Source: Planctomycetota bacterium
GTDB taxonomy: Bacteria; Planctomycetota; MHYJ01; JACQXL01
Assembly (NCBI GenBank): GCA_016235865.1
Contig: JACRIK010000003.1
Span: 186,001-250,000 of the forward strand
Direction of reading: 5' to 3'
Length of the DNA: 64,000 nucleotides
The translations under genes were made by a program, and so were the position numbers. Shown here piece by piece: positions 3,201-55,755 of the stretch; within the stretch, counting starts at the first letter, position 1; every line of letters starts with the position of its first letter. The notes below the pieces were generated by a model. The model did not search any database, was not told where the DNA came from, and worked only from the letters and a program-made list of their open reading frames with translations.

Positions 3201-3224
3201 TTCTTCATCTATTAATCTTTTTAT

Positions 3225-4196
3225 CTATTTCTTAAGCGTCACCCGGGATTTTATTTTCAGGTTCCCGCTGGCAGACGATAATATCTTTTTTTCGTCATGG
3301 GTAACCGACGGCTTGGTTATCGTAAACGGCCCGGCGATTTCCAGTTCCAAGGAAGGATTGTCGCCGCCGGCCACCAGCTTGCAGAAACCGATTAGTTCCA
3401 CGCTTGATTCGGTGTCTTTTGTCTTCTGTTTAATTTTAACGTTAATCAATATCCTGGAGGACAGTGTTTTTCTTGATTTGATTACCTCTTCCAGCACACC
3501 GTTGCCGATAACCACGCATGATTTTTCGTTATAATACTCTTTAAAAATCACCCTGGCTAATTCGTTGCTTTTTATCGGGTAAGACGATCCAATCGCGACC
3601 GCATTTTCGACTCCGGGCAGGCAGGTATAAAACCAATTCAAAGAATTAACATAGGTGTAGTCATCACTGATAATGACGGCTTCCTTAGGCGCTGTCTTTT
3701 CGTATGAGATAATCTGGTAGTTCTTGGACTCCAGTGCCAGTGTCTTGCCCTCAAGCGAGGTGGTCATTGTCTTTTTACCGTCATCAGGCATATTGGACTT
3801 TATAACCGACGATAAATAAGCGCGTTCGGACTTGAAACTGAGCTGGTCGGTCGTAATAAGGGCTATTTTCTCCGTGTATTGCTGGGATATCACCTTGGAA
3901 TAAGGATATGACTGCGGCGTTTCATCAGTCCTTATGACCACGACCCCGTCCCATTTTTGCTCTTCCTCTATCTTTAATTCATCGCCCATCTTGAAAATCG
4001 GCAATACCTGATGGGTCGGTGTAATTATTTCCACCGGTAATGTTTCGGGGTCTGAATTACTGCTTTTTCCCGTGGGAGTCGGAGTAGCGATATCCGCCGG
4101 ATCCTGGTTTATCGGCTTTCCTTGCGCCCAGGATAAAACCGCCCCGAACGCAAACAACAATAACAAAACTACCGCTAACTTATATTCTTTTTTCAT
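3225..4196 (-). CDS. Exported protein of unknown function
   Basis: A secreted protein of about 323 residues. I start it at the ATG at 4196 because a GGAGGTGATT ribosome binding site sits directly before it; the in-frame GTG at 4202 overlaps that site. The N terminus is a signal peptide (hydrophobic core AVVLLLLFAFGAVLSWAQ, probable cleavage after AQG). The mature part is Thr/Ser-rich at first and then predicted mostly beta strand, with paired segments such as ELKIEEEQKW and LELEIAGPFTI. No catalytic motif or family recognised. The lipoprotein gene at 4307 lies upstream on the same strand. Confidence 0.75.
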   Translation of the reverse strand: MKKEYKLAVVLLLLFAFGAVLSWAQGKPINQDPADIATPTPTGKSSNSDPETLPVEIITPTHQVLPIFKMGDELKIEEEQKWDGVVVIRTDETPQSYPYSKVISQQYTEKIALITTDQLSFKSERAYLSSVIKSNMPDDGKKTMTTSLEGKTLALESKNYQIISYEKTAPKEAVIISDDYTYVNSLNWFYTCLPGVENAVAIGSSYPIKSNELARVIFKEYYNEKSCVVIGNGVLEEVIKSRKTLSSRILINVKIKQKTKDTESSVELIGFCKLVAGGDNPSLELEIAGPFTITKPSVTHDEKKILSSASGNLKIKSRVTLKK

Positions 4197-12800: not shown

Positions 12801-13070
12801 TCCCGGGTTCCAGGGACGTAATACATAGTTATTTTAAATAGTCACCGGTAGGCAATGACCAACGGACGTTTTACTGAGGGCAACGAAGGATTCGTAGAGG
12901 GCAATGAACGGTTCACTGACGTCTCTGAACGGTTCGTTCAGAGTAAATGAAGCAGTAATGCATGTATTCCTAGCCCACTTCCGGTAATCTCTAAAACTCA
13001 AAATCGCCAAAAAACCGACCCCACTATTCGGATGGCCACTCCCCACTTCGGCACTTTGGCCTACCCTCTA

Positions 13071-13281
13071 AGACGCCAAGAGCCACCGGTTCAGGCGCCA
13101 AGGGCTACCCATTAAGACGTCAAGAGCCACCCCTTAATATTCTTTTCACCACTCATTGATAGATAATTAACCGCCCGTTTATAGCCCTTTCACCACCCAG
13201 TGCCAGTAGTTTAGCCACTCCCTGAGACGCCAAGAGCCAGCCATTCAGACGCCAAAAGCCACCCATTCAGACGCCAAAACC
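13071..13281. repeat. Degenerate ~22-bp tandem repeats (AGACGCCAAGAGCCACC)
   Basis: About three copies of AGACGCCAAGAGCCACC-like units at 13071–13135 and three more at 13225–13281, with some spacing variation. Between them are related pieces (CACCACTC, CCAGTGCCAGTAG). Copies vary at single positions (AGGCGCCAAGGGCTACC, AGACGTCAAGAGCCACC), as in old degenerating arrays. Confidence 0.65.
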
Positions 13282-13522
13282 CCCTCATCGCCATTATGGC
13301 AAGGGGGGAGGGGGTAGTACCCCCTGGGTGGGGGGTAGTAGGGTCTGAGCGTTTTTGGGCCGACCAGTGTTGGATTTTACGACATTTTCACCGATTTCGC
13401 ATGATCCGACCGGATAAAGTATGGCTATTTAAGGAATTTTCACCAATTTATGCCTTAAGAGGATGGGAGATGATATTATATGTATTTTATGCTTAATTAT
13501 GCAGTAAATATGACAATCAGAG

Positions 13523-42166: not shown

Positions 42167-42604
42167 AATAACGGTTCGGCGGCCTCAGTGGCTAATCCCA
42201 GAAAATTCCTAAATAAAGTGAACCGGATGCCTGTTTCTTCGTTTATATAATAGGAAGGAAGTAGTCAGTAGGCAGAAAACGGTAGTCAGCTATACTGGAA
42301 AAACGAGTGCTCGGGAGGGTTTGATTTTACTGGGAATTTTAGGGTTTGATGCAGTAAAATGGTGGTCTGGAACATTCTATATTACGGAGGGAAGTGTATG
42401 TATGTATCCCGCTAAAGCGGGATCTAAGTGCCAGTACGTCGCTTCGCTTCTACTGGCTCTAAGACAAGGGGGTAGAGGCCCCATAGGGTGCGCCATAAAC
42501 CGGGCGCGCCGGGTTTTGGGGCTGAGGCCTTGGGGAAGGATAAAGGCGATTTATATGAGGCCGTCGCGCCACGCCGGATAACAACTTTGAGGAACCGGAG
42601 AAAG
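42167..42604. other. Intergenic region before HTH gene
   Basis: Holds one GAGCCAGT palindrome (42421–42465), a CCCGCTAAAGCGGG hairpin just before it and a GC-rich palindromic piece (AACCGGGCGCGCCGGGTT) at 42498–42515. No convincing gene seen. Confidence 0.5.
42421..42465. repeat. GAGCCAGT palindrome, copy 3
   Basis: GATCTAAGTGCCAGTA at 42421–42436 and TACTGGCTCTAAGAC at 42451–42465, loop CGTCGCTTCGCTTC similar to copies 1 and 4. Confidence 0.75.
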
Positions 42605-43179
42605 ATGACAGGGATTTTAAAGATGAAAGCCATCAACCTGAAAATCCGGATTGCCACGGGCAGGGAAGTAATACACGCCGAAGAGCATCGGATAAGAAAA
42701 ATGCCTTTGACATCACCCTGCTCAAGAACGACTTCCAGACCCTGGCCGATTTGCAGGGCCATTTGACCTTCGAATCCTTCATCAGCCTGTTCCTGGACAT
42801 CCGTTCACGGCTGGAATGCCCGACCGGCTGGGCCCTGGAACTGCTCCGGAAATTCGTCAATTTCCAGGGTAATATCAGGCGGATGGCCGAATCCTTGGGC
42901 ATCCCGGCTAAGGCCGACAAGGTCAAATGCCGGATGCGGTATCTGGCGCGCCGGTACGGCACCCGGTCGCTCAAGTCCTTTCTCAAGGCGGCTCAGGTCT
43001 ATGTCTATGTCTGCCGGAAACTCCGCTGGCGCATGGACTATCACTGCGACCGGCTGGGCGCCTGGTGCGATTGCGGGTTCAATTGTAAGCAGGCGGCCCG
43101 GCTGTCCGGCATGTGCGCGGCCAAGACCTTCCAGCGCTATATCAAACGGCTCAAGGCCCGGTTCGGGTTTGGCGGATAA
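42605..43179 (+). CDS. HTH-type protein with -1 frameshift
   Basis: Two overlapping frames read as one protein. The first part starts at the ATG at 42605 (GGAG four bases upstream) or 42623 and encodes INLKIRIATGREVIHAEEH. At the run AAAAA (42697–42701) a -1 shift enters the second frame, which continues NAFDITLLKNDFQTLADLQ to the stop at 43179. The main part has two HTH-like segments (NIRRMAESLGIPAKADKVK and CKQAARLSGMCAAKTFQRY), so DNA binding is likely. The shift could be programmed slippage, a mutation or a sequence error. Its 3' end is duplicated at 44177–44210. Confidence 0.55.
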
Positions 43180-43180
43180 G
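43147..43180. repeat. Direct repeat flanking DUF3800 cassette, left copy
   Basis: 34 bases starting CGGCTCAAGGCCCGGTTCGG at the 3' end of the HTH gene; 31 of 34 match 44177–44210. Each copy is followed within 20 bp by TTGACAGAA. Confidence 0.8.
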
Positions 43181-43185
43181 AAAGA

Positions 43186-43213
43186 TTGACAGAAAGAATG
43201 GTTCTGATAGAAT
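43186..43213 (+). promoter_or_regulatory. DUF3800-gene promoter, near-leaderless
   Basis: TTGACA at 43186–43191, 16-bp spacer, TAGAAT at 43208–43213; start codon at 43225, so a leader of about five bases. Confidence 0.7.
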
Positions 43214-43224
43214 CAACTTAAGAT

Positions 43225-43920
43225 ATGAGAAGCCATTTTATCTATCAGGATGAAAGTGGAGTGGTGGGCACAACCGGCAACTTCATTGTCGGCCTTTTAT
43301 TTGTCAAGGAACGGCCGCCGTTATACGAAATCATTCAAAAGACAAGGGAAAAGCACAAATACTGGAAGGAATTACATTTTTCGGAGATATTCTATTTCTC
43401 GTCAAAACGCTCGCGGGTGGCTTGTGAGGTTCTGGATAACATCTTAAGAGAACATATCTATTTCCGGGCTTTGGCCGTATCGAATGAAAAGTTGGAGTTA
43501 AAATATTTTGATGGCGCTATGAGAAAGCCCGGGGATTTAACCGAGGAGCAAGTCCGGAAGGCGAAATCCCGGGGGATGTTCCGCGCCTATAACTACTTTA
43601 CCAAAGAGCTGCTTTTGGAAAACGCCGGTATCCTAACCGAGGCGGTGGTTTATCTGGACAAGAAAATCAGGATGCGGGACGACAATATCTGCGAATACAT
43701 CAAACGGGAAATAAACCTGGCCACCAATAAAACGGCCATAAAAGTCGTTGAGCCGCGCGATTCCAAGCAGGACGATTTAATCGGCATTGCGGACCTGGTG
43801 TTGGGTGCAATAAATTATAAAATGAAACAAGGCCAGAACCCGATGAAACTGGCCGTGGTAAAAGTAGTCGAGCAGTATATCGGCAAAAAGATACGTTTCC
43901 GGGAATGGGTCTTTAAATAA
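43225..43920 (+). CDS. DUF3800 domain protein
   Basis: A 231-residue protein of the DUF3800 family, which has an RNase H-like fold and is frequent in defence islands. The N-terminal YQDESG supplies the first acidic pair. A central helical region (HFSEIFYFSSKR) and the C-terminal PRDSKQDDLIGIADLVLGA, with its Asp residues and Asp-Leu pair, complete the predicted active site. The activity of the family is not established; nuclease action on RNA or DNA is the usual suggestion. The gene stands alone between direct repeats, with its own promoter. Confidence 0.82.
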   Translation: MRSHFIYQDESGVVGTTGNFIVGLLFVKERPPLYEIIQKTREKHKYWKELHFSEIFYFSSKRSRVACEVLDNILREHIYFRALAVSNEKLELKYFDGAMRKPGDLTEEQVRKAKSRGMFRAYNYFTKELLLENAGILTEAVVYLDKKIRMRDDNICEYIKREINLATNKTAIKVVEPRDSKQDDLIGIADLVLGAINYKMKQGQNPMKLAVVKVVEQYIGKKIRFREWVFK

Positions 43921-43943
43921 AAATGGCCGTACTTCCTAATTTT

Positions 43944-43970
43944 ATTAGGGCCTCGAAAAGAGAGCCCGTT
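43944..43970 (+). terminator. Hairpin after DUF3800 gene
   Basis: GGGCCTC–GAAAA–GAGAGCCC forms a short stem followed by GTTTCGG, about 25 bp after the stop codon. Only a few T residues follow, so terminator function is tentative. Confidence 0.4.
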
Positions 43971-44123
43971 TCGGTCATACAGCCAAAACACTATATAGCG
44001 GATAACGGCGAATCTGTCAAGTAAAATATTTTATTATTGGTAAAATAATGTTTACCATCGGGATTAAGCAACATAATAGGCCCGACCGCCCGAATTAACC
44101 CGCCGTTAAATCCGTATCTATCT

Positions 44124-44156
44124 GCGTAGCGACAGCGGAGTCCCGCCCTAGCGGGG
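44124..44156. repeat. Dispersed GCGGAGTCCCG repeat, copy 2
   Basis: GCGTAGCGACAGCGGAGTCC followed by CGCCCTAGCGGGG. Nearly identical, in inverted orientation, to 53541–53575. Confidence 0.7.
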
Positions 44157-44176
44157 TGGTTGCCTTTCTCCTTACC

Positions 44177-44210
44177 CGGCTCAAGGCCCGGTTCGGGGTT
44201 GGCAGCTAAG
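44177..44210. repeat. Direct repeat flanking DUF3800 cassette, right copy
   Basis: Matches 43147–43180 at 31 of 34 positions and preserves the C-terminal reading frame of the HTH gene (RLKARFG then a stop codon). It is therefore the 3' remnant of a second HTH-gene copy. A promoter with TTGACAGAA follows. Confidence 0.75.
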
Positions 44211-44223
44211 CCACAGAAAAATG

Positions 44224-44251
44224 TTGACAGAACCAGGTATACTGGTAAAAT
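44224..44251 (+). promoter_or_regulatory. Promoter of nuclease cassette
   Basis: TTGACA at 44224–44229, 16-bp spacer, TAAAAT at 44246–44251; followed by a short A-rich leader and the small ORF at 44273. Confidence 0.7.
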
Positions 44252-44272: not shown

Positions 44273-44356
44273 ATGAAGCTACACCAGAACAATTACGCAT
44301 TTATTGACAGCCAGAACCTTAATATGGCTCCGGCTAATCCTATGGAGTATCAGTAA
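44273..44356 (+). pseudogene. 27-codon remnant of a NYN-domain gene
   Basis: The ORF encodes 27 residues containing NNYAFIDSQNLNM, which matches the first strand and loop of NYN/LabA-type (DUF88) PIN-like ribonucleases, including the catalytic-region Asp of FID. It then stops after EYQ. Its TAA overlaps the ATG of the DUF1016 gene by one base (TAATG), so it may serve as a coupled leader peptide. Read as a truncated NYN gene replaced by the next gene; chance resemblance is possible. Confidence 0.5.
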
Positions 44357-45360
44357 TGAAATTGATGAAACGATTTAATAAGCAGTTTGCTGAGGTCGTA
44401 AATATTATCCATAAAGCGCGGTTTAACGCCATAAAAAGCGTAAATACCGAACTGGTGAAACTATACTGGAACATCGGCGAATATATCAGCGGAAAAATCG
44501 CATCCGCCGAGTGGGGTGATGCCGTCGTTGACCAACTGGCTGACTACATACAAACCAACCATCCGGAATTCAAAGGATTTAACCGCAGAGGATTGTACCG
44601 AATGAGGCAGTTTTATGAGGTTTATCCGGACAATAAGATTGTGTCGGCACTGCTGACACAAATCAGTTGGACAAATCACCTGCTGATTCTTTCTAAAACC
44701 AGGTCAAAAGAAGAGCGTAAATTTTATTTAATGCTTTCAATTAGGGAAAGATACAGTTCGCGCGAACTGGAACGGCAAATAGACAGCGGTTACTATGAAC
44801 GGGCAATGATTTCAAGGAAAAAAGTGCCGTCACTGATGGCGCAAACCCATAAAGATATTACTGCGGTATTTAAAGACACCTATATTTTGGACTTTTTACG
44901 CCTTCCGGAAAGCCACAGCGAAAAAGAATTACAGAAAAGCATTGTCTCAAACTTAAAGGATTTTATCATTGAGTTCGGGAAAGATTTCGCCTTCATCGGC
45001 CAGGAATACCGGATTCAGGTCGGCAACAATGATTATTTCATTGACCTTCTTTTCTTCCATCGCGGTCTTAAGTGTCTGGTTATGGTGGAACTGAAAATAG
45101 ACGACTTTAAGCCGGAATATCTGGGCAAGATGAATTTCTACCTTGAAGCATTGGACCGGGATGTTCGGAAAGAAGAAGAAAACCCCAGCGTGGGTATTAT
45201 CCTATGCAAATCCAAGGACGATGAGGTTGTAGAATATGCCCTCAGCCGCCATCTTTCTCCGACACTGGTAGCAGAATACAAGACGAAATTAATACCCAAG
45301 AAAATATTGCAGAAAAAGCTACACGAACTATTTATGTTAGAAGGAAAGGTTAGGCGCTAA
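44356..45360 (+). CDS. DUF1016/YhcG-type PDDEXK nuclease
   Basis: A 334-residue protein. Residues about 10–160 form the helical DUF1016 N-terminal domain (VNTELVKLYWNIGEYIS, FNRRGLYRMRQFYEVYP). The C-terminal part is a PDDEXK-fold nuclease with catalytic residues Asp in YFIDLLFFH and the E-x-K of VMVELKIDDFKPEYLGKM. The family is common in defence islands and mobile regions. It follows the NYN remnant with a one-base overlap and shares its promoter. No partner methylase or specificity subunit is seen. Confidence 0.9.
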   Translation: MKLMKRFNKQFAEVVNIIHKARFNAIKSVNTELVKLYWNIGEYISGKIASAEWGDAVVDQLADYIQTNHPEFKGFNRRGLYRMRQFYEVYPDNKIVSALLTQISWTNHLLILSKTRSKEERKFYLMLSIRERYSSRELERQIDSGYYERAMISRKKVPSLMAQTHKDITAVFKDTYILDFLRLPESHSEKELQKSIVSNLKDFIIEFGKDFAFIGQEYRIQVGNNDYFIDLLFFHRGLKCLVMVELKIDDFKPEYLGKMNFYLEALDRDVRKEEENPSVGIILCKSKDDEVVEYALSRHLSPTLVAEYKTKLIPKKILQKKLHELFMLEGKVRR

Positions 45361-45537: not shown

Positions 45538-46491
45538 TTAAGAAAAAGGTTCAGGTTCACCTGATTTGATCTTAGGCGAGTTTTCTATTCCTTTAAATAT
45601 TTCACGATTTAAATCACGCTCGAATAAGTATAATGCTTTCCAAGCTGAATCAAAACTGCGCTCCATATACAATTTATTACATTTAAAAAATTGTCCATTT
45701 GGACTGCTAACCACTATATAATATAATGGCTTATCTTCAAGTATTGATTCCGCAATTAGAATTTCTACAAGCGAATCATCAATTAATTTAATATTCCCCC
45801 TCCATAAAATGCTATTAGTTTGCTTTGAAAGGAAAGTCTCGATATCTGGATACATTTTGGAAATAATCTCTTTGTCTCGAGTGCGGATTTGCTTAATCGC
45901 TATTTGGCTTGTAGCTGTAGTATCAGTCAGAACTTCTTTATTAGGTCTTTCATCTGCGTCCTCTCCTCGATCAATAAAAATCGCTGGCTCTTTAATAATT
46001 TTTATTTTGGAATGGGGGATTTCAAAGCCTGCCACAGCTCCTTTTTTAAATAAAAAGTGCTTAACTATATATCTTCCATGTTTAAAAAACGCGTCATTCT
46101 TAGATGTAACTAAAAGCGCGTAAAAGAAGTCTATATTATGTTTAGTATGATTAACGGTCCTAGTATATGTTTCAATGTCTCCTCGACTTAAGGCATCCAA
46201 ACCATTAACATGATGTGTATGCCAATTACCAAGAGCTTCGATTTCTGGATATGACGATTCTATCTTCCTAAAAATCATTTCTTGATATTCGCCGTCCTGA
46301 AAAAAACTAACCGGCGACTTGCGTGCATTTGGCCCCGGGGCAATTAATGCGCAAACTTTTATTTCTACTTTATTATCCTGTTGAGCAAAGAATCCAACAA
46401 TACGTCCGCCAGTTTCATTTATTTTATTTTTATCGCACTCATCAAAGATAGCTTCCAGCACATCCTTGCAAATCGATATCTTAATTTGCAT
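45538..46491 (-). CDS. JAB/JAMM isopeptidase-like protein
   Basis: About 317 residues. The zinc JAMM motif is complete: Glu in NETGGRIVGFF, then HTH, and SRGD eight residues later (HxHx8SxxD in WHTHHVNGLDALSRGD). JAMM enzymes of bacterial ubiquitin-like operons cleave conjugates or process the modifier. After the core (about residue 160) there is a C-terminal extension containing NSILWRGNIKLIDDSLVEIL and ending in SGEPEPFS. I start it at the ATG at 46491 (AGAAGA upstream, five bases after the E1 stop); an in-frame ATG at 46527 would overlap the E1 gene. Last gene of the operon. Confidence 0.88.
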   Translation of the reverse strand: MQIKISICKDVLEAIFDECDKNKINETGGRIVGFFAQQDNKVEIKVCALIAPGPNARKSPVSFFQDGEYQEMIFRKIESSYPEIEALGNWHTHHVNGLDALSRGDIETYTRTVNHTKHNIDFFYALLVTSKNDAFFKHGRYIVKHFLFKKGAVAGFEIPHSKIKIIKEPAIFIDRGEDADERPNKEVLTDTTATSQIAIKQIRTRDKEIISKMYPDIETFLSKQTNSILWRGNIKLIDDSLVEILIAESILEDKPLYYIVVSSPNGQFFKCNKLYMERSFDSAWKALYLFERDLNREIFKGIENSPKIKSGEPEPFS

Positions 46492-46496
46492 TGTTT

Positions 46497-47342
46497 CTAT
46501 CTTCTTTCGTTCGAACATACCTGACATCCTTCCTGAGGTTTTAAATCAATGCGCTGAATCTGGAAATGTTTTTTAAATGGTGGCGTTGGACGATTACCCC
46601 AAACAATATAATTATCCGGGAGTGCCTGCATATATTTAGGCCGTTCCGGCAACGTTTCTGCAATCGCATCAAGAATGAATCTGGTATGAAATGCCGTAAT
46701 AAAAGATATATCGACATTGAGCCCCGGCGAGTCTTTTATTTCTGCTATTTCCATCCCATACATTAATTCTCTTTCTTTCTCAGAAACAAGGTCTATCTCC
46801 CTTGTGCCCTGGCGGAAATTAGTTCTTGCAAGAACTCCTTCAAGGCATGCTAAGCATCCCCCTTTACCTGGGCGGTAGATAAATACCTCGCCTCCAATTC
46901 CCCTGGTGAAAACTCGGGCTACCACAAATGGAATTTTATTCCGTACACAAAGCTGATTAACTAAATATCGTGTCGGTTCATTGTCGGTGGCTAAAGCGAC
47001 TATTGTATGACTTTTTATCTCTGACTCAAGATTGTCGTAATGCATTATATCTACGTCTAATTTCCCGACTTTAATTGCGGGGTTGCGATCCAAAAGAATT
47101 TCCTCAAGCGCGTCAACTTTTTTCTTGCCGACAAATCTAATTCCACACACATGCCGGATAACATTTTCTAATCCAAGGATGTCTTTGTCTATAAGAGTAA
47201 AATTTCGAATACCTGACATTGCCAGTTGTAAAGCAAGACTTCCACCGCCGGAACCACAACCAGCGATAAGCACCTTGGCATCACCCAATAAACCGACATC
47301 AAAAAGTTTTTTTATTCTTTCGAATATTTTATTGTTATTCAT
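46497..47342 (-). CDS. ThiF/E1-like ubiquitin-activating enzyme
   Basis: A 281-residue stand-alone E1-type adenylation domain. ATP-binding loop AGCGSGGGSLALQLA, Asp53 of LIDKD, the Arg contact in LENVIRHV and the ATDNEPTR loop are as in ThiF/MoeB/E1. Two CxxC pairs (CLAC near 163–166 and CQVC near 273–276) should bind zinc. Cys66 and Cys132 are other candidates for a catalytic thiol; the sequence alone does not settle which is used. Expected to adenylate the C terminus of a small modifier and hand it to the E2 proteins encoded just upstream. Confidence 0.9.
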   Translation of the reverse strand: MNNNKIFERIKKLFDVGLLGDAKVLIAGCGSGGGSLALQLAMSGIRNFTLIDKDILGLENVIRHVCGIRFVGKKKVDALEEILLDRNPAIKVGKLDVDIMHYDNLESEIKSHTIVALATDNEPTRYLVNQLCVRNKIPFVVARVFTRGIGGEVFIYRPGKGGCLACLEGVLARTNFRQGTREIDLVSEKERELMYGMEIAEIKDSPGLNVDISFITAFHTRFILDAIAETLPERPKYMQALPDNYIVWGNRPTPPFKKHFQIQRIDLKPQEGCQVCSNERR

Positions 47343-47365
47343 CTATTATTCTGCGTTTGATTGAG

Positions 47366-47872
47366 TCACTTGCCTTTTCCGCGCCATTCTTTATAGTTAG
47401 AAAGCCATTTCCTAGCCAATTCTAAAACAAAGGCAATATTGTGCTTACCAGGATTCCAATTAGTCATTGCGCCAAAAATACAGAGCGCGCCATTCTTCCA
47501 ACGATGTGGCGCGTTATTCTCAATAGGTTGAGCATATACCATTGGAGCATTATTGGGGTATCCGTGAGGAAGTACAATTTTCAGAGTGATTTTATCTTTG
47601 CCATTAATTTCTCTAAAAATTATTTCTAACTCCTTGTTTTCTGAAAGGGTTAATATTGGTTCCTCCCCATTTTTGCGCAATTCGTCTATTTCTTTGTCGA
47701 CTTTTTCTTTTGGTATAGCCGGCAAAAAATACCAAATAGGTACTAAACACGCTTTTTGGTTCCCGCTCCTCTCGATAATAAATGCTTCACCCTTTTCATA
47801 CACCCGGTCAAGAATTTCTCCGGGCGAACTCCGCAATTCCATCATTGTCAGAGTTTTAAAATCTAATTCCAT
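47366..47872 (-). CDS. Phd/YefM antitoxin domain fused to E2-like domain
   Basis: 168 residues with two parts. Residues about 5–50 (LTMMELRSSPGEILDRVYEK, then FIIERSGNQKACLVPI) match the Phd/YefM antitoxin DNA-binding fold, including the E-x-R, G-x-x-x-x-x-V and AxLVPI pattern. Residues about 80–168 are an E2/UBC-like core: LPHGYPNNAPMVY, then PHRWKNGALC with candidate catalytic Cys131, then NWNPGKHN and KWLSNYKEW. The C-terminal part is homologous to the neighbouring E2 (47882–48256). The fusion could let the conjugation operon sense or repress itself, or act as an antitoxin. Fusion is seen directly; its role is inference. Confidence 0.8.
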   Translation of the reverse strand: MELDFKTLTMMELRSSPGEILDRVYEKGEAFIIERSGNQKACLVPIWYFLPAIPKEKVDKEIDELRKNGEEPILTLSENKELEIIFREINGKDKITLKIVLPHGYPNNAPMVYAQPIENNAPHRWKNGALCIFGAMTNWNPGKHNIAFVLELARKWLSNYKEWRGKGK

Positions 47873-47881
47873 AGTTTTTCT

Positions 47882-48256
47882 TTAATGTGCGATTGATCTT
47901 CCCGGCCAAACCCCACTATTTTTCCAGACTTCATATTTATTAATCCATTTGGCTGTACGTTGAATAACGAATGAGAGATTATGTTGACCAGGATTCCACA
48001 TACTTGGATGCAAGTAACAAATATTCCCTGTATTATAACGATGAGGCCCAGATAAAACGTCTGGTTTATCAATATTAACTGAGGGCATTTCGTATGGATA
48101 ACTGTCAGGAAAAAGTATAGAAATAACATAAATCTGGTATGACGGCTGAAGTGCGACCTTAACACAAATCTTGCCATTTCTTGTTTGGTACAAATCCATA
48201 TTCTGAAAATATGCCTTTGCATCGTTAAATTGCCGCTGAACAAGATATAAATCCAT
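47882..48256 (-). CDS. E2-like ubiquitin-conjugating protein
   Basis: A 124-residue UBC-fold protein: beta strands, then FPDSYPYEMPSV (the E2 FPxxYPxxPP equivalent), then PHRYNTGNICYLHPSMWNPG with candidate catalytic Cys80, and a C-terminal helix KWINKYEVW. It would accept a modifier from the E1 encoded two genes downstream and pass it to targets. It starts 2 bp after the stop of the small gene and ends 9 bp before the Phd–E2 gene, so it is co-translated. No HPN motif is visible, as in many bacterial E2s. Confidence 0.85.
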   Translation of the reverse strand: MDLYLVQRQFNDAKAYFQNMDLYQTRNGKICVKVALQPSYQIYVISILFPDSYPYEMPSVNIDKPDVLSGPHRYNTGNICYLHPSMWNPGQHNLSFVIQRTAKWINKYEVWKNSGVWPGRSIAH

Positions 48257-48258
48257 AT

Positions 48259-48441
48259 TTATCCCTCTATATAATATTCACCACCAAGGTCTTCTTTATA
48301 TGTTATAGGTCTCTTGCCAATTTCAAGACTATTGGTTGGGTTGCGAGGACGGATTTCTCCATTTGGCATAATCTCGATTGGAACCTCGTCTTCTGTATCA
48401 AGGATTCTCTTCAGGTCATCAACTGTTGGTTTTGGTGCCAT
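48259..48441 (-). CDS. 60-residue protein ending in Gly, candidate modifier
   Basis: The first gene of the operon, with a good ribosome binding site (GGGAGGA). It starts MAPKPTVDDLKRILDTEDEV and ends KEDLGGEYYIEG with a terminal glycine. It is acidic, with a helix followed by probable strands (VPIEIMPNGEIRP). Position first before E2, E2, E1 and JAB genes makes it the best candidate for the ubiquitin-like protein, although 60 residues is short for a full beta-grasp and the tail is not the usual Gly-Gly. It could instead be an adaptor or substrate. Confidence 0.65.
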   Translation of the reverse strand: MAPKPTVDDLKRILDTEDEVPIEIMPNGEIRPRNPTNSLEIGKRPITYKEDLGGEYYIEG

Positions 48442-48462
48442 ATAATCCTCCCGACTGTTATA

Positions 48463-48513
48463 ATTACACGGTTATCATAATTGTATAGTTATCATATTTC
48501 TTCAGGTTGTCAA
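48463..48513 (-). promoter_or_regulatory. Operon promoter with tandem 17-bp operator-like repeats
   Basis: On the minus strand TTGACA (48513–48508), 16-bp spacer, TAACTA (48491–48486). Two directly adjacent 17-bp repeats, TATGATAACTATACAAT (48496–48480) and TATGATAACCGTGTAAT (48479–48463), 13 of 17 identical, cover the -10 box and transcription start. They look like a repressor site; the Phd-like domain encoded in the operon is a natural candidate regulator. Confidence 0.65.
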
Positions 48514-48589
48514 GAAAAATATAAAGATTTATTGATATTTATTATAATGTGTTTACTCACTGGCGACCATTGGTTTGCACTCGGTATCT

Positions 48590-51451
48590 CTATCCAACAC
48601 CATATCTATTTTTTAATCTCTTTATTTCGTCTCTTGTCTCTGTAGTTATTGCATTTTCTGGTACAAGCATGCCAACTAGGTTTTTAGCAAATTTCTTGCC
48701 ACTGCGCCAAAAAGCTCCATCCGTAGAGATGGGAACAAAGGGTAAGAATGTTTTCAATTGATGAATACAGAAAAAACCGTGCTTATAAAGATAGGAGAGT
48801 TTGTTTGCCTCATCAAAATGCATAACACAACAGCCGATTTTATTAATATTATGCTCGGCGTGTATTTTCCCGACAACCAACGGAATCAATTCATTAGCAG
48901 TTTCGTGGCTTGCTTTATAGATCGAAGAGATACACATACCGATTTTTTCAATATCTGGCTCGGCTTGTATTTTGGTTTTAAGGCCATTGAAATCAATTAA
49001 CTTTTTAGCAACATCCTGGCTTGTGTCTACAATAATACTAATAAGCCATCCGATTTTTCCAATATCCGCTTCAGCACCTATCTTTACCTTTAAGTTATTC
49101 GTATCTAATTCTTCAATCAACTCTTTAATAATTTCTTTATCTGCCCAAGCGTTGATACATAGGCTTATTTTTGCAATATCTGCTTCAGATTCTATTTTAT
49201 CGCGCAAGTTACTAACTTCTAATCCTTTCATTAACTCTTTAGCAATTCCTGCCCTCACATCGTTAATTTGATTTACGCATCGAGCTATTTTCTCAATATC
49301 TATCTCTGCTTTTATTTTCGCTTTTAGATTATCGGAATCAATTAACTTTCTAGCGTCCCCCAGACTTATCCTCATAATAATACTAATAAACCAACCTATT
49401 TTTTCAATATCCGGCTCGGACTCCATCTTTACCTTCAAGTTGCCCATATCTAATTCTTTGATTAATTTCTTAGCAAGCTCTTTATTCGCATCAACAATCC
49501 CTTTTAGGCAGGAAAAAACATTATTTGCATCTCGCTCAGTACCTATTTTTAAAGCAATCACTGGGATTAATGTTGAAGCAACTTTTTTGTTTGCCTTTGA
49601 AATATTGCATATATACCAACCTATTTTCTCAATATCCGGCTCATACTCTATCTTTTCCTTTAGTCTTTTTGCATCTAATTTTCCAATTAACTTTTTAGCA
49701 ATTCTTTGGTTGATATTGAAGGAAACACTAAAGCAAGAGCTTATCTTATTAATGTCTGATTCAGATTCTATTTTTGAAGCAATTGCCGGAATCATTTTCT
49801 CTGCAACCTCATCACTTGCGGGAAAGATACGTCCAACAAACCAGGTAATTTGATTAATATCTGGTTCGCATTGTATTCCATATACAATTGATTCGTGATT
49901 TGAATTTGATTTGACTATTTCATTAATGAGACTACGATGGAATTCCTTTTCCCGAGAATCATTTGCCCACCTATCCAATCCTCTGATGATACCCCCAGAA
50001 GCTAATGGATGACTCTGAATATAGGTATGAAATAGTCCCCCGAACCAATCGCCATTCCCAATTTTTTCTCTTATTTTCTTTTTAACCTCTTTTCCTAGAG
50101 AATCATACTGTTTAATTGCCTGAAAATATAAATCAGCAAGAGCTGAATGATGGAGCGAAAGCATTACCCCATTCTTCTCTGTAGTTGCAACAACTTCATT
50201 TATGCTGACTAAAGCATCAATATCATCATTTTTTATTTCTAATATCCTAGTAAGGAGTTCTTTATTCACTGGGATCTCATATCTATTGAAAACACAAAGT
50301 GGCAATAATACATCGGGGGCGTTTATTAATTGGTTCTTGTATTTGGGATGATCATTTATTAATTCTTTCTGCATCCACTTAACTACTTTTTGAAGGACTT
50401 TATCTTTGTCAACGCTTTTGAAGTTTTCATCTTGAAGAGTCCCCAATGTCCAGCCTAAAATCCATAAGTTGTTTCGGTATTGTTTTAATAGGGCTTTAGT
50501 CTCAGGCGTGGTTTTTTGGCCATGTTGACTAAGAAATAATTCTATAATATTATCAGCAACTGATTCTGGTTTTAGTTCAATCCCTTCCCCAAGACGCTCG
50601 TCTATTTCACCAAATCTTTGACCTTCTGCCTGACCTTTGATACTTCTTAAAGCAATAAGAATTTTATGCGTTTCTATCGTTCTTATTATATCGCTAACAT
50701 AAGATAAGTTAAAGTGCGCGTCGTCAATCAAGAAATATGCAGGTTCATTATTGTATAACTTTTTAAGCTCACTGGGTGGAATGACCTCCGTTTTCATCCT
50801 TAATTCAATCAAGGAAACATTCTTTCCAGCTTTGGCGAGTTCATAACCAACCCATTTCAGCACGACTGATTTTCCACATGCTGGCTGACCTTTAATAAAT
50901 ACAATCCGCTTGGATTCAAGTTGCTGCAATATTTTATCTACTTCTTCTGCCCTCTTGGCAACAAAGCCTTGCTCAAAATCAATCCATTTGGGTCCGGCAG
51001 AGCGGAAGAATTTAGCTTTCTTTTCTCCATCTTTATCAAGGATATTTTCTATTCGCAGTTCAGAAAAGCTGATTAAGTTTTCCTCTTGGTCTAATTTGCA
51101 TGCGCTTCCTTCAACTTCTTTGAGCGCTACTTCTTCGGTACTCTTTTTCCATTGTAACAACAAATCGCAGGGATATCTTTTTTCATCATTATCAACTAAT
51201 TTTCCACAATTCTGGCAAAGCCAAATTCCGTTTTCTATCGATTTTCTCTGTTCTTCCGTAAGAGATGCATTATATCGTTTCCCACCAGGGGAAGCTGCGG
51301 TAATGTGAGAGGCAACACCGATATTAAGAGCCTTATCAACAGATTCTTGTGGCCCGCTAGTTAATTTCGCACACTTTGGATTGGAGCACTTGTAGCCCAC
51401 ACGTTTGGCTAAAATCTCTTTTGTTGATTTATCAAAATCATCTCTGCTCAT
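48590..51451 (-). CDS. HNH–P-loop NTPase–repeat protein, defence-type
   Basis: 953 residues. N-terminal HNH-like domain: Cys22/Cys27, SHITAASPGGKRYN with His49, then NGIWLCQNCGKLVDNDE (Asn74, CxxC 79–82). The last HNH His is not obvious. A P-loop NTPase follows, with Walker A GQPACGKS at 188–195 and Walker B FLIDDAH at about 240–246, as in STAND-type ATPases. From about residue 515 to 935 run roughly a dozen degenerate 36-residue helical repeats (core E-x-D-I-x-K-I-G). The architecture fits a sensor (repeats), switch (NTPase) and nuclease effector. AT-rich; it lies 149 bp upstream of the conjugation operon on the same strand. Confidence 0.85.
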   Translation of the reverse strand: MSRDDFDKSTKEILAKRVGYKCSNPKCAKLTSGPQESVDKALNIGVASHITAASPGGKRYNASLTEEQRKSIENGIWLCQNCGKLVDNDEKRYPCDLLLQWKKSTEEVALKEVEGSACKLDQEENLISFSELRIENILDKDGEKKAKFFRSAGPKWIDFEQGFVAKRAEEVDKILQQLESKRIVFIKGQPACGKSVVLKWVGYELAKAGKNVSLIELRMKTEVIPPSELKKLYNNEPAYFLIDDAHFNLSYVSDIIRTIETHKILIALRSIKGQAEGQRFGEIDERLGEGIELKPESVADNIIELFLSQHGQKTTPETKALLKQYRNNLWILGWTLGTLQDENFKSVDKDKVLQKVVKWMQKELINDHPKYKNQLINAPDVLLPLCVFNRYEIPVNKELLTRILEIKNDDIDALVSINEVVATTEKNGVMLSLHHSALADLYFQAIKQYDSLGKEVKKKIREKIGNGDWFGGLFHTYIQSHPLASGGIIRGLDRWANDSREKEFHRSLINEIVKSNSNHESIVYGIQCEPDINQITWFVGRIFPASDEVAEKMIPAIASKIESESDINKISSCFSVSFNINQRIAKKLIGKLDAKRLKEKIEYEPDIEKIGWYICNISKANKKVASTLIPVIALKIGTERDANNVFSCLKGIVDANKELAKKLIKELDMGNLKVKMESEPDIEKIGWFISIIMRISLGDARKLIDSDNLKAKIKAEIDIEKIARCVNQINDVRAGIAKELMKGLEVSNLRDKIESEADIAKISLCINAWADKEIIKELIEELDTNNLKVKIGAEADIGKIGWLISIIVDTSQDVAKKLIDFNGLKTKIQAEPDIEKIGMCISSIYKASHETANELIPLVVGKIHAEHNINKIGCCVMHFDEANKLSYLYKHGFFCIHQLKTFLPFVPISTDGAFWRSGKKFAKNLVGMLVPENAITTETRDEIKRLKNRYGVG

Positions 51452-51630: not shown

Positions 51631-51970
51631 CACCTAAGCCCTGGACTACCCCTGCCTACGCTCTTATATACCACTACCGAAAGGGGCTACCTATACTACC
51701 TAAGCCCTTGACTACTACTACCTATGCTGTCCAGTATGGCTTCCTATACCCTTGGCTATGACTACCTAAGCGGGCCACTATGGCTACCTATGCCCTTGGC
51801 TATGACTACCTAAGCGGGCCACTATGACTACCTATACCCCTGACTACTACTACCTAAGCTGGCTACTATGCCTACCTATGCCCGTGACTACTACTACCTA
51901 AGCTGGCCACTATGCCTACCTATGCCCCTGACTACTACTACCTAAGCCCGTGACTATGACTACCTATGGG
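51631..51970. repeat. 44-bp tandem repeat array
   Basis: About 340 bp of tandem units near 44 bp long, each built of two halves: TGACTACTACTACCTAAGC and GGCCACTATGCCTACCTATG with variants. Units in the middle (51735–51960) are most regular; the left edge is degenerate. The array is pyrimidine-rich on this strand and closes with a G/C-rich segment (GGGGTAGTATACCCACCCC). Confidence 0.8.
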
Positions 51971-52222: not shown

Positions 52223-53095
52223 ATGATTAAGAGATTGGTTGTTTATGGGGTGCTGGGGATGGCGTTAGCTTTGAGTACATTCACTTCGTTCAGTATAAAC
52301 TCCGAGCGTGAAGAAACGGAAATAATAATCGTTAATCCGATTAATCCGCTAAATCCTGTTGTTAGAAACCCGTACCAGGAGGAATACGAGCGGATGCTTT
52401 ACCCGACGGTCCGAATCACATCGGATAGCGGAACGGGTAGCGGGGTAGTGATAAGCGTGCCTCCCGGTGCGCCGCCTTCGGCGTGCTCCCGACCATCGCT
52501 TTGCTCAGGGGAGCGTGGAGCGTATAGCGTAGAGGGAATAGCAATACTGACCGCCGCGCATGTGGTGGAAGACCAGAGCATAGTTGATGTAGAACTTTAT
52601 AACTTAACAGTTATCACAGGGACAGTAGTAATTACGGATACGGCCAGGGATTTGGCACTGATAAGCATAGAGCATAGAGCCAAGAGCATAGAGGATAAAA
52701 TATTCACCGCTCAGTTAGCAGGTAAGGATTATATCCCGTATCTCTTTGCTCCCGTCTGGGCCGTGGGGTGTTCTCTCGGTCTTAAACCAAGGCCTTCTTT
52801 TGGACATATCACGAGTATAGAGGATTCCACGCTCAACGCTATACGCTCTACGCTTCACTGGGAAGTTTCCTGTCCCATCCTGCCCGGTAACTCCGGCGGA
52901 CCGGTGTACGCGAAGTCGCAACGGAGTCCCGATGATTTCGGGAACGCCTACGAATATGAGGTAATCGGAATCGCTGTCTGGGTCAAGGTCTATGACGGAC
53001 AGTTGGTGACTACGATGGCAGGTGTGGTGCCAATAGGAGAGATTTATAAATTCTTAGATAACCACAAGATTTCACCAGATGCCCACAAGAAATAA
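52223..53095 (+). CDS. Exported trypsin-like serine protease with in-frame repeat insertions
   Basis: A 290-residue S1/HtrA-type protease with a signal peptide (VLGMALALSTFTSFS). Catalytic triad: His113 in LTAAHVV, Asp143 in ARDLALI, Ser224 in GNSGGPVY. There is no PDZ domain. The chain is interrupted in frame by repeat-derived stretches: about residues 80–105 (SACSRPSLCSGERGAYSVEG), 150–158 (EHRAKSIED), 200–210 and 230–242 (AKSQRSPDDFGNA, from the GCGGAGTCCCG repeat). Each falls in a surface-loop position of the fold, so activity may survive. Ribosome binding site AGGGGG upstream. Confidence 0.88.
   Translation: MIKRLVVYGVLGMALALSTFTSFSINSEREETEIIIVNPINPLNPVVRNPYQEEYERMLYPTVRITSDSGTGSGVVISVPPGAPPSACSRPSLCSGERGAYSVEGIAILTAAHVVEDQSIVDVELYNLTVITGTVVITDTARDLALISIEHRAKSIEDKIFTAQLAGKDYIPYLFAPVWAVGCSLGLKPRPSFGHITSIEDSTLNAIRSTLHWEVSCPILPGNSGGPVYAKSQRSPDDFGNAYEYEVIGIAVWVKVYDGQLVTTMAGVVPIGEIYKFLDNHKISPDAHKK
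52910..52943. repeat. Dispersed GCGGAGTCCCG repeat, copy 3, inside protease gene
   Basis: GCGAAGTCGCAACGGAGTCC followed by CGATGATTTCGGGA, in frame just after the catalytic Ser motif. Same family as 13801–13834. Confidence 0.7.
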
Positions 53096-53146
53096 TCATG
53101 TGCAAATCTCGTGTTAATCTCGTGGTTCCAGAAAGGATGGTGCCCT

Positions 53147-53536
53147 ATGTTAGCAGAGACATCGTACGAGTTCATCACGGAGAATGTCTGGGAAAGGCCC
53201 GGACTGTACAAACGGAGTTTTGACAGCGTCAAGGGCTACGTCAAATTCCTGCAGAGTTTCGAGGACCTGCGCCATCTGTCCAGTTTCCTGTGCCGCCAAC
53301 AGCCGGAATCTGACCGGATACGCACCCGGCTCATCCGCCGGCTCTATACCCTGGCCCGGAAAATGCCGCACCTGCGTAATGCCGTGCTGGAAATACTGCT
53401 CTTCGCCCGCCGGGACCAGATTACCCCGCCGGATATTTATTGGGACGACCCGGAACGGTTCGACGAGGTGTTCCATCGGAACCTGATGAAATATCTGTTC
53501 CTGGATATGGAGAAATGCAACCGCGAAACAGATTAG
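53147..53536 (+). CDS. Small helical protein, unknown function
   Basis: A 129-residue, largely helical protein rich in Arg and Leu, without signal peptide. Start at the ATG at 53147 with GAAAGGA upstream. Segments RTRLIRRLYTLARKMPHLRN and RRDQITPPDIYWDDPERFDE are distinctive, but I recognise no family. It lies 51 bp after the protease gene and before a run of repeats. Confidence 0.6.
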   Translation: MLAETSYEFITENVWERPGLYKRSFDSVKGYVKFLQSFEDLRHLSSFLCRQQPESDRIRTRLIRRLYTLARKMPHLRNAVLEILLFARRDQITPPDIYWDDPERFDEVFHRNLMKYLFLDMEKCNRETD

Positions 53537-53807
53537 CCATCCCGCTAGGGCGGGACTGCGCTGTCGCTTCGCAGATTAAGAAAAATCACCCTCTCCTTAA
53601 TCCTCTCCCCTCGAGGGAGAGGGTAGGGTGAGGGGGCTAATTAATAAGAAATCGTTACCAGCCGGACCATCCTCCGGGGTGTGGGACGGGATGGCCGATG
53701 CCCCGGCTCCGGTTGGTGATGAAGTAAACATTATTAACCATAGCCACTGATTTCACGGATTAGTGTTAATTCGTGTTTATTCGTGGTTCCAAGAATTGGA
53801 GCTTAAC
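53537..53807. other. Repeat-filled gap
   Basis: Contains the inverted GCGGAGTCCCG repeat (53541–53575), a CACCCTCTCC–GGGAGAGGGT palindrome at 53587–53635 of a type also seen at 55889–55941, and AATTCGTGTTTATTCGTGG words. No gene seen. Confidence 0.5.
53541..53575. repeat. Dispersed GCGGAGTCCCG repeat, copy 4 (inverted)
   Basis: The complement reads TCTGCGAAGCGACAGCGCAG followed by TCCCGCCCTAGCGGG, almost identical to 44124–44156. Confidence 0.7.
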
Positions 53808-54611
53808 ATGGCTACAAGAGCAAAGGCGTTCTTTATCGTGCCGATAAGGATTACGCCGATGGAGGAGACGACCGCGGACTGGCGCGATACCACCAAGTCC
53901 AAGTCGGCCAAGGCCGATAGCCACCGGAAACTGAAACTGGCCAACGACGGCGACTACCAGTCCAAACTGGCCCAGGCCTCGGCCCAGAAATACCGGAAAC
54001 TGGCCGACGCCCTGTCGGCCGGCGGTTACGTCTCGGAACACGGCCGTTCGGGCAAGGAAATCCGTTATATGCAGGAGAGCAAGATAATGGAGTCCTTCGA
54101 CAAGTACCAGACCGGCTGGGACTTCCAGTTCGAGACGATAGACGGCGTGGATGCCAAGCGCTATAAGGACGGCGTGGACAAGGGCATAGATGCCTACGGC
54201 GACGGCGTGGCCAAGACCACCCTGCGGTTCACCGGCGACGTGCGCCAGATCGGCGTGGCCGCGCTGACCGTGCTGTTCCTGACCGGGGACGAGCAGACGG
54301 TCGGTCTGCTGCGCGAAGGCGACCAGATAATTGCCGGCGGTCCGGTGGACGTGACCCGTCCGGGACTGCGGCAGTTGTTCAAGTCGGGCTTGCTGGCCAA
54401 ACTGGTTCAGGCCGGAATCCTGATTGTCAAAAGCAATTTTGACACGGACGTGATGCTGGCCCAGAACACGGTCATTAATGATTTCATTAATGGCCTGCAG
54501 AACGCGGCCTACACGGCCTTCCAGCCGACGGTTGACCCGCTTAAGTCGTATTGCCTGTTCATCCGGGACGGCGCGACCTTCAAGCTGGAAATCAACGTGG
54601 CAATGCCGTAA
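53808..54611 (+). CDS. Protein of unknown function next to fibre-like gene
   Basis: 267 residues, no signal peptide or membrane segment. Start chosen at the ATG at 53808 (MATRAKAFFIVPIRIT). The first half is charged and helical (SKSAKADSHRKLKLAND, AQASAQKYRKLADAL). The second half has beta-prone stretches (GVAALTVLFLTGDEQTVGL, KSYCLFIRDGATFKLEINV). No family recognised. The neighbouring fibre-like gene hints at a structural assembly, possibly phage-tail derived, but no other phage genes are present. Confidence 0.65.
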   Translation: MATRAKAFFIVPIRITPMEETTADWRDTTKSKSAKADSHRKLKLANDGDYQSKLAQASAQKYRKLADALSAGGYVSEHGRSGKEIRYMQESKIMESFDKYQTGWDFQFETIDGVDAKRYKDGVDKGIDAYGDGVAKTTLRFTGDVRQIGVAALTVLFLTGDEQTVGLLREGDQIIAGGPVDVTRPGLRQLFKSGLLAKLVQAGILIVKSNFDTDVMLAQNTVINDFINGLQNAAYTAFQPTVDPLKSYCLFIRDGATFKLEINVAMP

Positions 54612-54768
54612 GACAGCAACCACAGATGAACACAGATGGACACGGATGGCGTACGACTCTGTGCCCTCTGTGCCTCTGTGGCAAAGATTAATTAACCACG
54701 AATTAACACGAATACACACTAACTTCTTCGTGTCTTGGTGTCTTCGTGGCAAAGATTGCGAGAATTAT

Positions 54769-55755
54769 ATGTTGAAACCTTTTGAAGTCACAACGCCCAA
54801 GATTGCCACCAAGGCAGTCACGGGCGAGAAAATCGCGGATAACACCATCGAGACCCGGAGTTTTAAGGACGGCTCAATCACGCCGGATAAGCTGACCTTT
54901 GGCGCCGTGGCCCGGCCTCTGTCGCCCGGGGTTGCTACCGCGGAAATAAAGGATGCGGCCGTGACCTCGACCAAGATTGCGCCTAATGCCGTGACATCAG
55001 ACCACATCGCGGCTGATGCCGTGGCTACGGACGACATCAAGGACGGGGCCATTACCACGGAAAAAATCCGGGACGGGGCCATTACCCGGGATAAGGTGGC
55101 GGACCGCTCGGTCAACACGGCTGATATCGTGGACGGGGCAGTGACCAATGCCAAAATTGCGGTTGGCGCAGTAGGAGCGAGTCAGTTGGCAGTAGACAGT
55201 GTCGAAACGGTCAAGATAAAAGACGGCGCAATAACCAATGCCAAACTGGCCACCAATTCTGTAACCGCCAGCAAGATAGCGGCTGGCGCAGTAGCCAGTA
55301 GCGAGTTGGCAGTAGACAGTGTAATAACCGCTAAGATAGCTAACGGCGCAGTGACCGCCGAGAAACTGGCCCCGGGCGTGGGCGGCGGGGATACCCTGAC
55401 TATGTTCCCAACGCCACAGACCGCGCTGGACCAGGGCGGGATTACCTCAACGACCGTTCCGGCCAGCGTTGACCTTTCCGCAATCATCCCGGTCGGCACC
55501 AAAGGGGTTATCGTCTCAATCGCCTGTATCACCCAGAGTTATACGGATGGCGGAATGATGGCCTACATTTTTCGCCAGTTGGGCGCGGAATATGCCTTGC
55601 AGGTCATGGCTCCGCCGGTTAACGCGCCGGGGATATCGAACGGGGCATCAGTCCTGATGCCGGTGGCGGACAACCGAACATTGCTCTGGCAGGCATATGT
55701 ATCAGGAATAAACTCAACTGAGCTGGTAATCTATATATTAGGATACGTTGTGTAG
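54769..55755 (+). CDS. Repeat-rich fibre-like protein
   Basis: 328 residues. Residues about 10–205 are made of about 14-residue repeats of the form DGAITxxKIADGAVTxxKL, as in trimeric phage tail fibres and surface adhesins, where each unit gives a rung of a beta structure. After a Gly hinge (GVGGGDTLTMFPTPQTAL) comes a globular C-terminal domain of about 110 residues ending STELVIYILGYVV. No signal peptide. The last 22 codons are duplicated, diverged, at 55819–55884. Confidence 0.75.
   Translation: MLKPFEVTTPKIATKAVTGEKIADNTIETRSFKDGSITPDKLTFGAVARPLSPGVATAEIKDAAVTSTKIAPNAVTSDHIAADAVATDDIKDGAITTEKIRDGAITRDKVADRSVNTADIVDGAVTNAKIAVGAVGASQLAVDSVETVKIKDGAITNAKLATNSVTASKIAAGAVASSELAVDSVITAKIANGAVTAEKLAPGVGGGDTLTMFPTPQTALDQGGITSTTVPASVDLSAIIPVGTKGVIVSIACITQSYTDGGMMAYIFRQLGAEYALQVMAPPVNAPGISNGASVLMPVADNRTLLWQAYVSGINSTELVIYILGYVV

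Follow-up and report, generated by a model that had tools for sequence, protein, structure and literature searches.

A low-GC defence island in the window (the whole 64,000-nucleotide stretch of DNA analysed here) appears, with slightly better than even confidence on our part, to have split an operon composed of a helix-turn-helix (HTH) gene and a trypsin-like protease gene with its partners, to have grown at that HTH gene's 3' end in two or more steps, and to carry in a 34-bp direct repeat the scar of the addition of a DUF3800 unit. This reading draws on the repeat itself, the gene content of the island, its GC contrast with the flanking genes, the other copies of the operon, and a second defence block found at a second operon copy.

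The repeat is present as the initial annotation claimed, at positions 43147-43180 and 44177-44210 of the forward strand, with 31 of 34 bases identical. Bases 1-21 match exactly and all three mismatches fall within the final 13 bases, and the chance expectation for such a pair in the window, calculated from base composition, is about 1e-6. Copy 1 comprises the final ten codons, the TAA stop codon and one further G of a 206-codon open frame, the HTH gene (42559-43179, forward strand). Copy 2 is readable in the same frame to its own TAA, without an HTH gene upstream, and the proposal that both repeats represent the 3' end of an HTH gene holds for copy 1 but not for copy 2, which is a bare, isolated fragment. 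Searching the 2.67-Mb genome with the 21-bp core and up to three mismatches returned just these two sites and no third copy, and the remainder of the HTH gene likewise occurs just once there; rather than the copies of one HTH gene that had been envisaged, the genome contains one gene and one 34-bp fragment. No homology extends past the repeat on either side of its two copies, and no third copy scores above shuffles at the right edge of the island. A role for the repeat as hairpin or terminator was rejected, its folding being no better than that of shuffles. Two kinds of dispersed palindromic repeats, each with about ten or more copies in the genome, are found nearby at 42405-42470 and at 44108-44164, the latter ending 12 bp before repeat copy 2.

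Each repeat copy is followed by TTGACAGAA-N13-TA[GA]AAT with 16 bp between the hexamers, as originally described, starting 5 bp past copy 1 and 13 bp past copy 2. These are sigma-70-like promoters, both on the forward strand, one for the DUF3800 gene (43186-43213) and one for an NYN-like fragment and the DUF1016 gene behind it (44224-44251). The pattern TTGACA-N15-18-TANAAT occurs 50 times in the genome versus 7 for the reversed control, so that both sites resemble ordinary strong sigma-70 promoters, and 16% of unrelated promoter pairs from the same genome align at least as well as these two stretches do. Given this common promoter class and unremarkable likeness, the duplication reaches no further than one base past the stop codon, and the notion of a duplicated promoter, that is of a promoter demonstrably forming part of the duplication, is not supported. 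Further upstream in the window, a 49-bp stretch at 42201-42249 (GTGAACCGG...TTCGTTTATATA) recurs at C2:46577, C18:32536, C33:18773, C30:175459 and C26:20543 and may be an alternative-sigma promoter.

Defence cargo lies directly behind the window HTH gene, in line with the initial annotation. The sole gene between the repeat copies (43225-43920, forward strand; PADLOC PDC-M04A) encodes a 231-aa DUF3800 protein that matches PF12686 across the entire domain (residues 5-199) with 31.9 bits against a curated cut-off of 21, and is predicted to be an RNase H-fold nuclease, the fold reported for this family (PMC10910872, PMC12669027). No relatives of it were found in 392 genomes of the phylum, in plasmids or in viral contigs; a single match, at 27%, was found in phages, and no Rfam RNAs, including those associated with DUF3800, lie near the locus. 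Behind copy 2, a 27-codon fragment (MKLHQNNYAFIDSQNLNMAPANPMEYQ*; 44273-44356, forward strand), which by eye resembles the start of an NYN gene and whose 27 residues give no Pfam match, precedes a full-length DUF1016/YhcG nuclease gene (44356-45360, forward strand; PDC-S02) encoding both a DUF1016_N domain (PF17761, 2e-42) and a YhcG_C PD-(D/E)XK domain (PF06250, 2e-57). The reverse strand then carries a ubiquitin-conjugation-like defence operon identified with Pfam and PADLOC (45538-48441; JAB protease, E1, two E2-like proteins and a 60-aa protein), followed by the gene for a STAND NTPase with an N-terminal endonuclease-like region (48590-51451; PF25199, PDC-M68A and endonuclease effector models). 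Within this 45538-51451 region, one of the E2-like proteins is fused to a Phd/YefM-like N-terminus, and the operon adjoins the STAND-endonuclease gene on the same strand. GC content is 57% in the HTH gene, 45% in the DUF3800 unit, 41% in the DUF1016 unit, 37% across 45538-51451 and 54% in the protease operon that begins at 52223. Among the Pfam-tested genes in or beside the block there is no recombinase, and the island shows neither an integrase or transposase nor terminal inverted repeats.

The right limit of the island probably falls between 51451, where the STAND gene starts, and about 51640. Directly before the protease operon stands a tandem array of 12.6 units with a period of 22 bp (51691-51968), at the position that such arrays occupy in several other operon copies; as 22-bp arrays also occur elsewhere in the genome, the array alone does not fix the boundary. 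Arrays with a period of exactly 22 bp (also 44, 66 and 88 bp), whose unit sequence differs at nearly every locus, are found at 13041-13282 in the window, at C33:2669-3001, C19:8852-9161 and C21:27721-28151 and at many other sites, as well as in two genomes of the same order. Their frequency in this genome, about one per 25 kb, weakened the idea of the array as an exclusive partner of the HTH gene.

The operon family to which the interrupted copy would belong consists of an HTH gene, a trypsin-like protease gene and two or three further genes, and is present in multiple copies. A search with the protease identified four copies in this genome (C33:3531-7572, C21:18531-21259, C19:5068-8606 and window 52223-55755) and about eight in each of two genomes of the same order. 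The window copy lies on the forward strand and comprises the trypsin-like protease gene (52223-53095), genes at 53111-53536 and 53763-54611, and a gene for a repeat protein (54478-55755); the operon includes a protein without any family match. In other copies an HTH gene directly precedes the protease. The initial annotation had proposed searching related genomes for the HTH gene and listing what lies downstream. Searches with the gene itself, covering 59 relatives, 392 phylum genomes, genome contigs, viral contigs and plasmids, returned no homologues, and a two-HTH family scan of genome and viral contigs gave no matches; since this search was empty, the downstream comparison was made through the protease operon instead. 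Ten operon copies besides that of the window have an HTH head gene; there the gap between HTH and protease measures 158-772 bp and holds no defence genes. Seven of these ten head genes are of a two-HTH type, and in four of the seven (copies in relatives) the protease is followed by a gene of the 53111 type, as it is in the window.

Several features mark the HTH gene at 42559-43179 as the probable head gene of the operon at 52223. No other head gene accompanies the window protease, and the two genes share a strand, with the HTH gene 9 kb upstream and the island between them. The leader stretch at 42321-42394 (forward strand) is common to the leader of the C33 HTH-protease operon (3212-3286), with 80% identity over 75 bp (E about 1e-11), and the genes behind the shared leader and HTH gene in C33 are relatives of those at window 52223-55755. 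At the protein level the similarity is weak: none of 300 shuffles of the window HTH sequence reaches its score against the head-gene profile and hhalign gives an E-value of 7.6e-4, and in a stricter profile search of the genome (E 1e-4) the window HTH gave no match. It resembles the head-gene family in its out-of-frame start and its acidic N-terminus, and its tie to the family would rest mainly on position, leader and start arrangement. Synteny of the left flank, around the gene at 38382, was discarded as evidence for an empty site, as other genes follow that gene in related genomes.

The start arrangement is itself unusual. The HTH frame, whose product has only weak Pfam HTH matches, all under cut-off, contains no in-frame ATG, GTG or TTG within its first 64 codons. 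A short eight-codon ORF runs from an ATG at 42555 to a TAA at 42581 (forward strand), and the HTH frame lies at +1 relative to it, which is the arrangement of the two-HTH head genes. Across the loci compared (L113, L117, L118, L119, L121, L124 and L127 in relatives, together with window 42555-42581), the two-HTH genes are without an ATG, GTG or TTG start near the conserved N-terminal part, with the exception, in one or two relatives, of a TTG or GTG codon far upstream of or inside that part; an ATG, mostly behind a ribosome-binding site, instead opens an ORF of seven or eight codons one frame off. Right after the short ORF, purifying selection acts on the HTH frame of the relatives (e.g. dS 1.3, dN 0.14, values that describe the relatives' genes and not the window gene), and CCGCTTTTATGAC is invariant in five paralogs from genome G005 that have diverged strongly at synonymous sites elsewhere. 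Sequence comparison suggests that the family is likely expressed via programmed +1 frameshifting, and the window HTH gene would then be entered by a +1 frameshift from the ORF at 42555-42581.

Comparison among paralogous and related operon copies indicates that the operon does not invariably include the defence block, as other copies are without it. Different cargo is found elsewhere in the family: the C19 copy carries a low-GC block with a PLD protein, three CD-NTases, Shedu and NucC immediately upstream of the 22-bp array and protease, and the C21 copy has a low-GC block with NYN and Swt1-like HEPN genes upstream on the opposite strand. In G005, the array and head gene of one copy are closely preceded by a cytosine methylase gene and a restriction-like ATPase gene, and those of another copy by an N6-methylase gene. 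As a control, ten neighbour genes at three loci gave cysteine desulfurases and weak matches only, with no convincing defence genes; the recurrence comparison comprises a small sample, assessed with informal statistics. The C19 block has on its left edge a 115-aa gene that by eye resembled a head gene; this reading was rejected, the similarity not exceeding that of shuffles. The different block at C19, together with the short gaps of the other copies, supports the conclusion that defence cargo arrives recurrently beside this operon family. The initial suggestion of repeated insertion of defence cargo behind the HTH gene is in this way partly supported by a second operon copy with a different block, but not in its appeal to copies of the HTH gene end. 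A broader interpretation, which we put forward only tentatively, is that the operon family (frameshifted HTH gene, trypsin-like protease, partners and often a 22-bp array) is a place where defence genes dock time and again, with the HTH 3' end as the point of addition for successive units, and that it represents a previously undescribed family.

The history that we favour would begin with the HTH gene at 42559-43179 heading an operon copy whose protease part now begins at 52223. The low-GC defence island (43181 to about 51600) would have come between that gene and the operon remainder, an insertion reading suggested by the paralogous and related operon copies. In a first step, the NYN/DUF1016 unit, the ubiquitin-like operon and the STAND gene would have been located behind the HTH gene; in a second, a 1,030-bp unit consisting of the DUF3800 gene with its own promoter would have been placed at the HTH gene end, which was thereby duplicated over 34 bp, the duplicate forming a scar that separates both units. 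The repeat most likely records this addition of the DUF3800 unit; the steps probably occurred in this order, and the site may attract cargo. Active cassette exchange, as the initial annotation had it, is unproven, since neither a recombinase nor a third repeat was found.

How such a unit would have been placed at a gene end admits one possible mechanism within this history, with predictions of its own, namely site-specific integration in which the repeats correspond to attL/attR-like sites at the 3' end of a gene and the recombinase acts in trans, comparable to tandem SCC elements at rlmH. The exact coincidence of the repeat with the gene end and the restored stop codon, the identity of the 21-bp core with all differences to one side, and the loss of homology at the repeat on both sides all speak for it, but the tested genes in and beside the block include no recombinase, the right edge of the island lacks a matching site, the core is absent elsewhere in the genome and no unusual hairpin is present, and we therefore regard this mechanism as possible yet doubtful. 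Somewhat less probable still, in our estimation, is a tandem duplication followed by decay, where two HTH genes each had a downstream unit and the second gene was reduced to its last 34 bp. Recombination may have brought this about, at the dispersed repeat whose end lies 12 bp upstream. That a dispersed genomic repeat adjoins copy 2, that 9% divergence is compatible with an old event, and that the operon family has multiple copies and many HTH paralogs would fit such a course; the absence of any HTH gene trace upstream of the 34 bp of copy 2, the dissimilarity of the downstream stretches beyond their promoters and the single occurrence of the HTH gene remainder in the genome all argue against it.

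Two further explanations concern what was duplicated and to whom the HTH gene belongs. The weak protein similarity to the head-gene family would be expected if the HTH gene were part of the defence island and unrelated to the protease operon, which we consider improbable in view of its host-like GC content of 57%, the leader it has in common with the C33 operon, the same out-of-frame start arrangement and acidic N-terminus, and the presence of a protease operon of the right subtype that has no other head gene. By far the least plausible is a single duplicated regulatory cassette, made up of promoter and gene end and driving both cargo genes: the occurrence of TTGACAGAA...TA[GA]AAT shortly after both repeats is what suggests it, and it is countered by the frequency of such promoters (50 versus 7 in the control), by their unequal distances of 5 and 13 bp from the repeat, and by a likeness not beyond that of unrelated promoter pairs.

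Overall, the locus provides a concrete and testable anatomy of a defence island that would have grown unit by unit behind a chromosomal gene, in a lineage with no integrase in sight. The operon family is present several times per genome and has different defence blocks beside it, so the question of how a landing place is chosen can be answered by comparing copies within one genome. With its HTH gene, 22-bp array, protease and probable frameshift start, the family is also worth study in its own right.

Known integration hotspots are mostly tRNA genes, prophages and satellites. The neighbourhood described here, unlike those known hotspots, is a multi-copy chromosomal operon family (HTH gene, 22-bp array, trypsin-like protease) within one genome, and what it has in common with the defence islands and integration hotspots surveyed in E. 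coli is the gathering of varied defence genes in a recurrent neighbourhood (PMC10121019). A close architectural parallel is found in the tandem (composite) SCC elements of staphylococci, in which cargo units follow one another at the rlmH/orfX 3' end and short direct repeats mark their boundaries (PMC11144489). The window likewise has direct repeats at both ends of a unit, at 43147 and 44177, with one at a gene 3' end. It differs from SCC, with its ccr recombinases and defined att sites, in that the unit measures 1 kb, no recombinase accompanies it (the DUF3800 gene stands alone between the repeats) and there is no third repeat. Nor does the unit correspond to an integron gene cassette, defined by folding attC sites and an integrase, as the repeat folds like its shuffles and the tested genes include no integrase. 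In the DUF3800 family, single-gene units amid defence genes are known as they are seen here (PF12686; PMC10910872, PMC12669027), but in the window the gene has no CRISPR or TPR partner and no Rfam DUF3800-associated RNA nearby. Finally, the arrangement is reminiscent of RptR, a small repressor encoded at the head of a defence island, which binds to direct repeats within its own promoter (PMC12255303), in that a small HTH-like regulator gene stands directly upstream of defence genes; the window protein is a different one, and is predicted to be the native regulator of an operon that the defence genes have probably interrupted.
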